A DNA stretch of 64,000 nt, taken from assembly GCF_030285785.1 (NCBI RefSeq), contig NZ_CP127247.1, positions 930,001 through 994,000 on the forward strand, written 5' to 3'. The DNA comes from Parasedimentitalea psychrophila (lineage in GTDB: Bacteria; Pseudomonadota; Alphaproteobacteria; Rhodobacterales; Rhodobacteraceae). Position 1 is the first letter of the stretch. The number at the start of each line of letters is the position of its first letter. Shown in pieces: positions 42,560 through 48,662 of this stretch. A program made the position numbers and the translations under genes. The notes beneath the pieces are model-generated. The model saw only the letters and a program-made list of their open reading frames with translations. It did no database searches and had not been told where the DNA came from.

Positions 42560-42590
42560 TGTGATCACAGCATTCGGGCTTGTGATCACA
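42560..42590. promoter_or_regulatory. Paired TGTGATCACA operators upstream of sdhC
   Basis: Two perfect 10-bp palindromes at 42560-42569 and 42581-42590, centres 21 bp apart (two helical turns), beginning 114 bp upstream of sdhC. The outer site extends to TTGTGATCACAA. The same motif in the same 21-bp pair occurs before sucC, and singly before mdh. The regulator is unknown. Confidence 0.75.
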
Positions 42591-42619
42591 AATTCTCAAG
42601 TTAGAGAAGTTTTGCAGAC

Positions 42620-43315
42620 TCAATCCCCTTGCCGCAAATCACTGCACGTCACGCACTGCGCAGTCTGCCGCGCCACCTCCCGCAGCAGCTTCATGCGGAT
42701 GCGCGCAGGGTAATCCGCAAAGCCCCCGGCGGTGGCCACAAAAGCCCCCTCGCCGTGGATCACATTTTCATAGAAATAGCTGGTCAGATCGGCATCGCTC
42801 TGCTCGATGGCCAAGGCATTCACTGTCACCCGCGCCTGAACCAACGCATCATACAGTTCACGCGGCGCCACCCCTTCGTTAGAGGTGCCATCCCCGGACA
42901 GATCAATCACCCGCCGCCTACAGTCCGGCACCCTATCAAACTGCGCCACCGCCAGTACCAGCGCTTGGCCGATGGCCGTCGAATAATTGCGCCAGGGCCG
43001 CTCCAGCCGCTCGATGCGATCCGCCAATTTCTCTGTGGCGGCAAAATCACCCATCTCGACCCAGGCAATGCTGACTTCTTGACGGGTTGAGCCCGACCAC
43101 TGGATCACCATAACCTGCGCCTTGCCCCGCACCAAGGCCTCGGCGACCACCCCATCGCGCAGGCCGGCCGCCAGCCCCTCCATCTGAATGCGGTATTCCT
43201 CAGCATCCACCGAGCCGGACACATCCACCGCCAGCACCAAAGCCAGATCGCAGGCCAAACCACCGACCGGCGCCCCAATCAGAACCGATAAAATCACAGA
43301 ACGCAGAAACGACAT
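42620..43315 (-). CDS. DUF1194 family exported protein with VWA-like fold
   Basis: A 231-residue protein with an N-terminal signal sequence (MSFLRSVILSVLIGAPVGGL) and a von Willebrand A-type metal site: DVSGSVD (D-x-S-x-S) near residue 31, YSTAIGQAL, and DLSGDGTSNEG. DUF1194 members are secreted or periplasmic proteins of unknown role. It is oriented leftward downstream of mch, with the sdhC operators directly after its stop, so it is not part of the sdh operon. An insertion in the hairpin region separates it from mch. Confidence 0.85.
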   Translation of the reverse strand: MSFLRSVILSVLIGAPVGGLACDLALVLAVDVSGSVDAEEYRIQMEGLAAGLRDGVVAEALVRGKAQVMVIQWSGSTRQEVSIAWVEMGDFAATEKLADRIERLERPWRNYSTAIGQALVLAVAQFDRVPDCRRRVIDLSGDGTSNEGVAPRELYDALVQARVTVNALAIEQSDADLTSYFYENVIHGEGAFVATAGGFADYPARIRMKLLREVARQTAQCVTCSDLRQGD

Positions 43316-43401
43316 GCTCGTAACTTAACAAGCAAGGCGCAAAAAACGGATCACTTTTTCGCCATTCGCCGCCCAGCGCCCAGGATCCGCCCTTCATCTG
43401 G

Positions 43402-43439
43402 CCAAAAATATCCCGGGGGTCTGGGGGCAGCGCCCCCAG
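43402..43439. repeat. CCGGGGG/GGCAGCGCCCC intergenic repeat, copy 1
   Basis: CCAAAAATATCCCGGGGGTC followed by the perfect hairpin CTGGGGGC (43421-43428) / GCCCCCAG (43432-43439) around AGC. It is related to 56750-56797 and sits between mch and the DUF1194 gene. It could act as a terminator for mch on the minus strand, where the AATATTT that follows is weak. Confidence 0.65.
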
Positions 43440-43460
43440 CCATCACCGCCGCCGCCCGGA

Positions 43461-44507
43461 TCAAAGTGGCATCAAGGCCCAGTAATCCAGATCCAGCAGC
43501 ACCCCCGGCAGGTATTTGCCATCCTCGCCCTTCAGCGCAAACGGCGCCGCGCCGCTGGTTGCAACCAACCGCAACCGAATGGCACCAACCCCGGGCGCCG
43601 AGGTCTCAGCCTTGTCCAACACCTCAGACCAGGCCCGCACCGTCATTCCCGACACACAGGGGTTGGCATGGGCGCCGCCATTCAACCCGACAATCATCTG
43701 CGCATTGGCCAGCCCGTTGAACGACAGCGCCCGCGCCAATGAGATCACATGGCCGCCGTAAATCAACCGCGTGCCGTCTGGCCGGGCGGTGGCGTCAAAA
43801 TGCACCTTGGCGGTGTTCTGCCACAGCCGCGTCGCCAACATGTGCTCGGCCTCCTCAATGGTGACCCCATCCACATGGTCGATCTTCTCGCCGACCTGGT
43901 AATCACCCCAGCGATGCGGCTCGCCCGCCAGGTTGAAATCGTAGTTGGAAAAATCCAGCCCCGCCGGGATCACCAGTTGATCCGCGCGCAGCACCTTAGC
44001 CAGATCCGGGATCACCGTCACCGGCGCCGAAGCCTCCACGTCCCTCTTGCGCAGCATCACCCAGCGCACATACTCCAGCACACAGTCATCGCGCTGGTTA
44101 AAGCCGCGGCTGCGCACCCAAACCACGCCAGTTTTACCGTTTGAGTTCTGCTTGACGCCAATCACCTCGGACACCGCCCGCAGCGTATCACCGGGATAAA
44201 CCGGCAGTAGCCAACGGCCTTCACCGTAACCTAGGTTAGCCACCGCATTCAGCGACACATCGGGCACTGTCTTGCCAAACACCAGGTGAAACGCCGCCCA
44301 ATCGTCCAGCGGTGACTTGGGCAGACCAGACCGGCGGGCAAACTCATCCGAGGAATACAGCGCATGGCGGGACGGATACAGCGCATGATACAGCGCCCGC
44401 TCGCCCCCCGACACCGTGCGCGGCACCGCGTGCTGCAACACATCGCCCACCGCGTAATCCTCAAAAAATCGTCCTGAGTTTGTTTTCGCCGGACTGGTCT
44501 TGGTCAT
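43461..44507 (-). CDS. mch: Mesaconyl-C1-CoA hydratase (beta-methylmalyl-CoA dehydratase)
   Basis: A 348-residue tandem MaoC/hot-dog hydratase interconverting mesaconyl-C1-CoA and erythro-3-methylmalyl-CoA in the ethylmalonyl-CoA pathway. The N-terminal half has GRFFEDYAVGDVLQHAVPRT and GGERALYHALYPSRHALYSS. The second half holds the hydratase-like HFDATARPDGTRLIYGGHVI. Length and the gene order mch-DUF1737-nnrU-mcl2 match the Rhodobacter arrangement. A leading Thr/Lys-rich tail (MTKTSPAKTNSG) may be variable. Confidence 0.93.
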   Translation of the reverse strand: MTKTSPAKTNSGRFFEDYAVGDVLQHAVPRTVSGGERALYHALYPSRHALYSSDEFARRSGLPKSPLDDWAAFHLVFGKTVPDVSLNAVANLGYGEGRWLLPVYPGDTLRAVSEVIGVKQNSNGKTGVVWVRSRGFNQRDDCVLEYVRWVMLRKRDVEASAPVTVIPDLAKVLRADQLVIPAGLDFSNYDFNLAGEPHRWGDYQVGEKIDHVDGVTIEEAEHMLATRLWQNTAKVHFDATARPDGTRLIYGGHVISLARALSFNGLANAQMIVGLNGGAHANPCVSGMTVRAWSEVLDKAETSAPGVGAIRLRLVATSGAAPFALKGEDGKYLPGVLLDLDYWALMPL

Positions 44508-44620
44508 TTTAGCGTTTCCAATTCAACTGGATATAAGTGTTCATCCACCCCGGAGAGGCCGCGTTTGATTGTCACGACGCCTTCGCCGGGGTGGGTGAAT
44601 TCATCAATACTGGAAACGCT

Positions 44621-47109: not shown

Positions 47110-47118
47110 AACACTTCC

Positions 47119-47128
47119 TGTGATCACA
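47119..47128. promoter_or_regulatory. TGTGATCACA operator upstream of mdh
   Basis: Single perfect 10-bp palindrome 194 bp before the mdh start, followed by AAATC as in the other copies. The flanks contain no second complete palindrome. The rest of 46984-47321 holds no supportable gene. Confidence 0.65.
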
Positions 47129-47321
47129 AATCGGAAAAACATTATCGCGCCTGTCGGCATTTCCCACGGGCCCTAACCCCCTAGTTTACAAGTTCTTTAG
47201 CGTTATCAGCCACAAACCGGTCAGGTTGCTGCGGCGCCGCGCTGCAGCGCAGAACTCTTGCACGACAGCGCGGAACCCCGTAGGCAACCGGCAATTTCAA
47301 CCGGACCGGAGACATATTCCC

Positions 47322-48284
47322 ATGGCCAGACCCAAAATCGCCCTCATCGGCGCAGGTCAGATTGGTGGCACCCTAGCCCATCTCGCCGCAATGAAAGAAC
47401 TCGGCGACGTCGTTCTTTTCGACATTGCCGAAGGCACCCCGGAAGGCAAAGCGCTCGACATCTCGCAGTCCGGCCCCTCCGAAGGCTTTGACGCCACGCT
47501 GAAGGGCACCCAGTCCTACGCCGATATTGCTGGCGCCGATGTCTGCATCGTCACCGCCGGTGTACCGCGCAAACCCGGCATGAGCCGCGATGATCTGCTC
47601 GGCATCAACCTGAAAGTGATGAAATCGGTTGGCGAAGGCATCCGCGATCACGCGCCAGACGCCTTTGTGATCTGCATCACCAACCCGCTAGACGCCATGG
47701 TTTGGGCGCTGCGCGAATTCTCGGGCCTGCCCCACGCCAAGGTCTGCGGCATGGCTGGCATTCTCGACTCGGCGCGCTTCCGCCACTTCCTGGCGGACGA
47801 GTTCAACGTGTCGATGAAAGACGTCACCGCCTTTGTGCTGGGCGGCCACGGCGACACCATGGTGCCACTGACCCGCTACTCTACCGTTGGCGGCATTCCA
47901 CTGCCCGATCTGGTATCGATGGGCTGGACCACCCAGGAAAAACTGGACGCAATCGTTCAGCGCACCCGGGATGGCGGCGCCGAAATCGTTGGCCTGCTGA
48001 AAACCGGTTCGGCATTTTATGCGCCCGCCACCAGCGCCATCGAAATGGCCGAGGCCTATCTGAAAGACCAGAAACGCGTGCTGCCCTGCGCCGCTTACGT
48101 TGATGGCGCTCTGGGCCTGAACGGCATGTATGTTGGCGTTCCCACCGTGATCGGTGCCGGCGGCATCGAACGTGTGATCGACATCCAGATGGCCCCTGAC
48201 GAGCAGGCAATGTTCGACAATTCAGTCAATGCCGTCAAAGGCTTGGTCGATGCCTGCAAGGCTATCGACGGCTCGCTGTCCTAA
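47322..48284 (+). CDS. mdh: Malate dehydrogenase (NAD-dependent, LDH-like type)
   Basis: A 320-residue enzyme oxidising malate to oxaloacetate. The NAD-binding loop is [15 protein letters not shown]. The active-site region shows [16 protein letters not shown] (with the three substrate-binding arginines), NPLDAMVW and the catalytic GGHGDTM (His176). ATG 47322 gives the family N-terminus [10 protein letters not shown]; the frame is open 96 bp upstream without similarity. A strong terminator follows, and sucC lies 488 bp later, so mdh is probably separately transcribed. Confidence 0.97.
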
Positions 48285-48308
48285 CCCGTCAACCTGTCTA
48301 CAGACCTC

Positions 48309-48338
48309 GGGCACGCCAGATCAATGGCGTGCCCTTTT
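48309..48338 (+). terminator. Rho-independent terminator of mdh
   Basis: GGGCACGCCA (48309-48318) / TGGCGTGCCC (48325-48334), a perfect 10-bp stem, with TTTT following. It lies 25 bp past the mdh stop. Confidence 0.93.
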
Positions 48339-48631
48339 GTTTGCAGATCAATCTGGGCTTACAGTCCTGATTTCTGCGGCACCTTACCCGCAGCATTGCC
48401 GCCTGTGCACGGACAACACCACCATAGCAGCCATAAGGTGGCGGCCCTGTGAAAAGCTGGCATCTGATACGCTGCCAACCGGTGGATACGCGACATGCTC
48501 CCCCTCTTTGCAGCGGTTCTGACCCGGGCGCGAAGACCCTCCCGGCGCAGGGATGTCGCGTTTAACCAAAAAGTGGCGAAAACCGACAGCGGCACCGTAA
48601 ACGAATCACTTTTGCAGATGATGCATTAATT
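48339..48631. other. Gene-free stretch between mdh terminator and sucC operators
   Basis: I find no supportable gene here. Short open frames on both strands lack start signals and codon bias. The distal part must contain upstream promoter sequence of the suc operon. Confidence 0.5.
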
Positions 48632-48662
48632 TGTGATCACACGCTCAAAAGCTGTGATCACA
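48632..48662. promoter_or_regulatory. Paired TGTGATCACA operators upstream of sucC
   Basis: Two perfect palindromes at 48632-48641 and 48653-48662, centres 21 bp apart. The nearer one ends 111 bp before the sucC ATG. Spacing, distance and the AAATTC flank match the sdhC pair. Confidence 0.75.

Follow-up and report, generated by a model that had tools for sequence, protein, structure and literature searches.

The closest described system is the AkgR regulon of Rhodobacter (Cereibacter) sphaeroides, whose regulator was reportedly named by Imam et al. 2015 (mBio). AkgR is reported to be a GntR-family activator with GTGATCAC as a binding site; sdh, sucCD and sucAB are its predicted targets. Regulator, motif and main targets are already in print for R. 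sphaeroides, and the system is of a known kind. A system of this kind is considered here in a 64-kb stretch of Parasedimentitalea psychrophila (the window; C1:930001-994000 of a 5,005,898-bp genome), where palindromic sites precede three units of the tricarboxylic acid (TCA) cycle: sdhC, mdh and sucC. In R. sphaeroides, the GntR regulator RSP_0981 is predicted to control RSP_0967-6 (succinyl-CoA synthetase), RSP_0974-6 (sdh) and RSP_0965-62 (alpha-ketoglutarate dehydrogenase); mdh (RSP_0968) is assigned not to RSP_0981 but to RSP_1663 (CceR), and sdh to both (PMC4344238). CceR, a LacI-family protein, resembles the present case in its predicted action on sdh and mdh (PMC4344238) but differs in its motif, (A/G/T)GTT-N6-8-AAC(A/C/T). 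The gntR-like PS417_07240 of Pseudomonas simiae, regulator of a deoxyribonate cluster and 32% identical to AkgR, has the same proposed site, GTGATCAC, before its own gene and the cluster; however, a single palindrome is reported, 40-47 bp ahead of the start codon, and a catabolic cluster instead of the TCA cycle is the proposed target.

Five exact copies of the 10-bp palindrome TGTGATCACA have been located in the window, at 42560, 42581, 47119, 48632 and 48653, where 0.03 copies are expected by chance (100 shuffles, largest count 1), and an exact search of the 64 kb found no further copy. The two sites before sdhC and the two before sucC have centres 21 bp apart. Between the near edge of the proximal 10-mer and the start codon there are 114 coordinates at sdhC (42560 vs 42446) and 111 at sucC (48662 vs 48773). 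The original prediction, that one operator recurs five times in three promoter regions, with these positions, spacings and distances and with no intergenic copy elsewhere in the window, is borne out in each particular. The sites and the genes behind them, of which those of sdh and suc were named by reading the sequences of the open reading frames (ORFs), are as follows.

42560..42569, no strand assigned: proximal AkgR-type operator of sdhC (TGTGATCACA), exact copy; pair conserved in related genera
42581..42590, no strand assigned: AkgR-type operator of sdhC, distal copy, its centre 21 bp upstream of the proximal centre
47119..47128, no strand assigned: single operator upstream of mdh, exact copy, genus-restricted
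48632..48641, no strand assigned: distal AkgR-type operator of sucC, exact copy
48653..48662, no strand assigned: proximal AkgR-type operator of sucC, exact copy
42063..42446, minus strand: sdhC, first gene of the sdh operon, an ORF; relatives found for sdhC and sdhA
41681-42052, 39864-41669 and 37883-38662, minus strand: sdhD, sdhA and sdhB, remainder of the sdh operon, ORFs
47322..48284, plus strand: mdh, malate dehydrogenase, an ORF with relatives found
48773..49966, plus strand: sucC, an ORF
50126-51007, 52044-55004 and 55008-56510: sucD, sucA and sucB, genes after sucC, ORFs

Genome-wide, TGTGATCACA occurs six times and the reversed control pattern never, which is not the random frequency that the original prediction had named as evidence against itself. 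When up to three mismatches were allowed in the 21-bp pair, the genome yielded the two perfect pairs, at sdhC and sucC, and one place with three mismatches. The 8-mer core GTGATCAC is common, with 200 copies in the genome vs 13 for its reversed control; since it is not rare by itself, specificity would come largely from the flanking T/A and from pairing. Coding bias is suspected behind the excess of the 8-mer over its reversed form.

The sixth copy of TGTGATCACA (L006:1501-1510) stands directly before a regulator gene outside the window (G000:C1:2008306-2008950), its 8-mer core ending 11 bp ahead of the start codon adopted for the product, P0001. This protein of 215 amino acids joins an N-terminal GntR winged helix (PF00392, E 6e-14) to a C-terminal FCD domain (PF07729, E 5.3e-19) in Pfam, the domain pair of the FCD (FadR-type) branch of the GntR family; no NCBIfam profile reached its cut-off against P0001. 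Among solved structures the best relative by sequence is E. coli McbR/YncC (4p9f, E 6.8e-21), a GntR/FCD protein and a distant homologue; the comparison covered the protein sequence. The predicted AkgR structure is weak (mean predicted local distance difference test score 72.4, predicted template modelling score 0.44), and no inference was taken from it. The palindromes are very probably operators of this genome's AkgR orthologue, because the motif equals the published AkgR site, because the GntR/FCD gene carries the sixth copy, and because in most genera of the family regulator and pairs either both occur or are both missing. The genome holds both GTGATCAC palindromes before the sdh and suc operons and an AkgR orthologue, P0001. 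A single regulator of GntR type is the best-supported reading, in line with the original suggestion of one regulator and of a GT-N4-AC core as in some GntR-type operators.

The comparison genome G051 has PufX, and the nearest named relative of its AkgR among the best 80 matches is that of Cereibacter ovatus (94%); G051 is probably R. sphaeroides or a very close relative. G051 carries a pair at each of sdhC and sucC, as the window genome does. Its akgR lies just beyond sdhB and lacks an operator, whereas the akgR of the window genome lies about 1 Mb away and has its own; likewise, mdh carries a site in the window but not in G051. RSP_0981 is probably AkgR, judging by the published regulon predictions; the orthologue of the window genome is tied to RSP_0981 by the position of akgR beside sdhB in G051 and by the genome layout of R. 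sphaeroides. At L006, akgR is flanked by a YgjP-type metallopeptidase-like gene and accA (named by reading), and in G051 the same metallopeptidase-akgR pair adjoins sdhB; akgR seems to have been relocated relative to the sdh locus between genomes.

The pairs are widespread in the family. At least one pair of cores with a spacing of 11-41 bp, at any genomic position, was found in 268 of 295 genera, and the control pattern in one. One genus, G265, carries 11 such loose pairs in a 2.6-Mb genome, vs two in most genera. In a sample of the class, a 20-21-bp pair occurs in 2 of 380 genomes outside the family vs all five family members included, and the reversed control in 1 of 385 genomes, with five occurrences. 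Site architecture was followed in 140 family regions around mdh, sdhC and sucC, mostly best-ranked mdh matches and so with nearer relatives over-represented. With the window included, sdhC was matched in 133 of 141 regions, and the 300 bp upstream of it hold two or three cores in 122, one in eight and none in three; spacings below 30 bp are 21 bp (105 cases), 20 bp (15) and 13 bp (1), so that 120/121 are 20-21 bp. For sucC (120 of 141 regions matched), two or three cores are present in 119 and one in a single region, and the close spacings are 21 bp (110), 20 bp (9) and 22 bp (1), that is, 20-21 bp in 119/120. The sucC consensus is approximately TTTGTGATCACAC-N6-8-CTGTGATCACAAA, with the T/A extensions chiefly on the outer sides.

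The position of the pairs relative to predicted promoters was analysed by a promoter scan, which gave the following candidates in the window.

42497..42502, minus strand: predicted sdhC -35 (GTGACA), 66 bp from the proximal core start
42475..42480, minus strand: predicted sdhC -10 (TAAAAC), after a 16-bp spacer
48710..48715, plus strand: predicted sucC -35 (TTAACC), 56 bp from the proximal core start
48734..48739, plus strand: predicted sucC -10 (TATAAA), after an 18-bp spacer
47258..47286, plus strand: predicted promoter of mdh (TTGCAC-17-TAGGCA), offset by 138 bp relative to the start of the operator core

A sigma-70-like sdhC promoter of the form GTGAC(A/T)-16-TA... lies downstream of the pair in most sampled genera; in the first set, its -35 motif is present in 68 of 72 upstreams, vs 3.1 after mononucleotide shuffling. 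Scans started 20 bp after the core with no other positional prior, and the threshold was the 99th percentile of shuffled sequence, which 107 of 129 sdhC promoters passed. The distance from the proximal core start to the -35 falls into discrete classes: 65-69 bp in 90 promoters, 76-79 in 11, 86-87 in two, 56-57 in three and 44 in one, with no offset between these classes among the 107. All 17 shifted cases are displaced from the main class by multiples of 10.5 bp, with deviations of no more than 1.8 bp. Steps of about 10.5 bp between genera are as expected for activation from one helix face. On a SdhA tree (a quick method, many weak forks, 101 labelled rows), 15 changes of offset class are needed, and well-supported branches force at least seven between the main class and the rest; for seven independent events, phasing by chance has P ~0.0004-0.0009. 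Among the 54 of 126 sucC promoters that passed, the offset is 54-56 in 50, 45 in two, 78 in one and 70 in one; the sucC (56) and sdhC (67) positions, one turn apart, fit the same geometry. The placement of both sites on one DNA face, suggested earlier, gains support from the 20-21-bp spacing and from the whole-turn shifts relative to the sdhC promoter. A second conserved element, approximately GCGCCAAAAAACCGCGCC, stands between the pair and the sdhC -35 (e.g. L103, L142, L275); GCGCCAA on either strand occurs in 42 of 111 regions vs 1 in shuffles, and the window carries TTAGCGCCAACA between sdhC pair and promoter.

The operator of akgR itself is arranged differently. It was analysed in 112 AkgR loci: a first set of 32 (the 30 best-scoring matches, including the window genome's own, with L099 and L100) and 80 named loci that best match the G051 protein. 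A core lies within 150 bp of the akgR start in 31 of the 32 and in 16 of the 80; it is absent from the G051 locus (L099) and from 64/80 named loci near G051. The last 90 bp before akgR contain GTGATCAC in 47 of 112 loci vs 0 of 112 for three control palindromes. Three named loci duplicate others, which leaves 109 distinct upstreams, 44 of them with the site. Among the 44, the core start lies exactly 18 bp downstream of the first base of a TTGAC in 36 (17-20 bp in 42); with the start codon positioned by alignment to P0001, it comes 8-12 bp after the core in 34. From these positions of TTGAC and start codon, the operator would occupy the expected spacer and -10 region, and it is likely that AkgR represses its own gene by occluding a possibly leaderless core promoter. 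L100 (G187:C1:3357949-3357969) has two cores 13 bp apart at the akgR promoter instead of one.

The overlap of the akgR site with its predicted core promoter, as expected of a repressor, is also what favours the best surviving alternative, in which AkgR binds here but represses sdh and suc, activation being confined to R. sphaeroides; FCD regulators are often repressors. Nevertheless, the predicted core promoters of sdhC and sucC lie well downstream of the pairs, and that of sdhC is in helical phase with them, an arrangement that suits activation better than occlusion, and the R. sphaeroides orthologue is described as an activator. Repression of sdh and suc is hence improbable, and activation by AkgR in this genome is quite probable, given the print on R. 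sphaeroides together with the phasing.

Presence of the regulator was compared with that of the pair across the same 295 genera. AkgR-like genes were found in 278 at E 1e-20 and in 268 at E 1e-50, the orthologue cut-off, whose adjoining values are 4e-48 and 3e-58. By hand tally, 262 genera have both pair and regulator, 21 neither, six the pair only (G019, G096, G114, G256, G264, G273) and six the regulator only (G040, G122, G147, G155, G281, G291), an association with Fisher p 1e-21 when kinship is ignored. A check of sdhA loci covered 30 chosen genera, the 27 without a pair together with G114, G019 and G096, and gave matches in 25 of 30 genomes; of the 27 loci used, an upstream sdhC pair was seen in two (G114, G096), one site in one (G040) and none in 20, and four had no sdhC match. 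That a different GntR/FCD paralogue, and not the akgR product, chiefly binds the pairs could be argued from the many genomes with at least two AkgR matches at E 1e-20 or better, and from the six genera with pairs but without an orthologue at 1e-50. Against this, the sole exact genomic copy outside the TCA region sits at akgR, 21 genera lack both pair and regulator, and the published activator has the same motif, so that a paralogue is very unlikely as the main binder.

Features of CRP/FNR or restriction/methylation type, unrelated to a GntR protein, are suggested by the resemblance of TGTGA...TCACA to CRP half sites and by the GATC in the core, but are hardly credible, as the half sites abut without the 6-bp spacer of TGTGA-N6-TCACA (as noted earlier, and enough to rule out CRP), only six exact copies exist in 5 Mb, clustered before TCA operons, and the sites show 20-21-bp pairing and co-occurrence with AkgR. 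CceR was also considered as binder and rejected; its published motif is absent from the sdhC, mdh and sucC upstreams of the window, and in relatives it shows no clear excess over shuffled sequence (sdhC 13/163 vs 11.9; mdh 11/149 vs 7.5; sucC 15/127 vs 10.1).

The mdh site has a narrower distribution. It is exact in seven of eight genomes of the genus, window included, and the eighth (L336) has one change, GCGATCAC; the core ends 192-195 bp before the start codon. Outside the genus, no exact site lies within 300 bp of mdh in any of 140 regions (139 with a near-full mdh match, one cut by the region end), and 8-mers with one mismatch, found in 19 of 139 regions, are at about the chance number (~16, for equal base frequencies). 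Conservation in relatives, anticipated for all three promoters, therefore holds for the pairs of sdhC and sucC and fails for mdh. As the mdh site is kept only within the genus, the three units do not form one ancient set: mdh is not a family-wide target, its membership of the ancient regulon is ruled out for exact sites, and the exact site seems to have been gained recently, within the genus. An in-phase mdh site is unsupported, the predicted promoter being off-phase; a TTTACA at +65 from the mdh core would be in phase, and no good -10 is seen 16-18 bp after it.

Taken as a whole, the best explanation, in which we place high confidence, is that AkgR activates sdh and suc from twin sites, that mdh joined in the genus, and that akgR is autorepressed. 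Each pair, before sdhC and before sucC, would take up two AkgR dimers on sites two helical turns apart on one DNA face; cooperative binding of the dimers is likely from the spacing. The predicted site centres fall at about -97 and -118 (sdhC) and at about -89 and -110 (sucC), relative to start sites that are themselves estimated; mapped transcription start sites have been published for R. sphaeroides (PMC7471390). From there AkgR would raise transcription of sdhCDAB and sucCD-sucAB through a helical-phase-dependent contact with RNA polymerase. The single mdh site would be a genus-level addition to the regulon, and through the site inside the akgR core promoter AkgR would repress its own gene. 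The name of the protein suggests that its effector control may relate to 2-oxoglutarate metabolism.

Several observations weigh against this explanation. The orthologue cut-off of E 1e-50 was picked after the values were known, and 12 of 295 genera are discordant. The assemblies of G096, G264, G273, G122 and G147 are less than 80% complete, but those of G114, G040 and G291 are discordant though rated 100% complete. G040 and G291 have the orthologue without an exact pair, G040 retaining one site at sdhC; G114 (L343) has the sdhC pair without an AkgR orthologue at E 1e-50, perhaps because the gene was lost recently, falls in a gap of the assembly or has been replaced by another regulator. On well-supported branches the association reduces to four independent contrasts, of which 3.2 agree on average and none oppose (p 0.25). 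The promoter profiles were derived from the same upstreams that they scored, though without regard to offset. Below threshold were 22 of 129 sdhC promoters, with offsets of 60 and 168 off-phase and the remainder near the main class or near whole turns, and 72 of 126 sucC promoters; the passing sucC offset of 70 is off-phase, and the mdh offset (138 bp) differs from the sdhC mode by 6.8 turns, which is not an integer.

The available parts of PMC11323563, PMC6365646, PMC7471390, PMC4419725, PMC5507952 and PMC4344238 contain no mention of the pairing, the whole-turn shifts, the akgR core-promoter site or the mdh recruitment; the primary description of AkgR and the supplements lay outside the scope of this comparison, and these features are not claimed as unpublished. 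Literature containing the exact TGTGATCACA concerns, by its titles, subjects other than AkgR.

For the family at large, a wider proposal is put forward tentatively, at somewhat less than even confidence: AkgR pairs may act as rigid activating units of two dimers each, reaching RNA polymerase from a position about 90-120 bp upstream, their phase with the sdhC promoter being kept by evolution so that only whole-turn insertions or deletions survive, and the operator in the akgR core promoter may provide negative feedback that steadies TCA-cycle expression. The findings tie TCA-cycle control in the roseobacter/Rhodobacter lineage to one regulator with few clear exact sites in this genome. The pair shifted by about one or two whole turns in 17 of the 107 genomes with a confident sdhC promoter is a natural experiment on promoter geometry, and through these shifts the idea that a GntR/FCD protein activates from one face of the helix can be tested directly. 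The mdh site, gained at the level of the genus, suggests that the regulon is growing.

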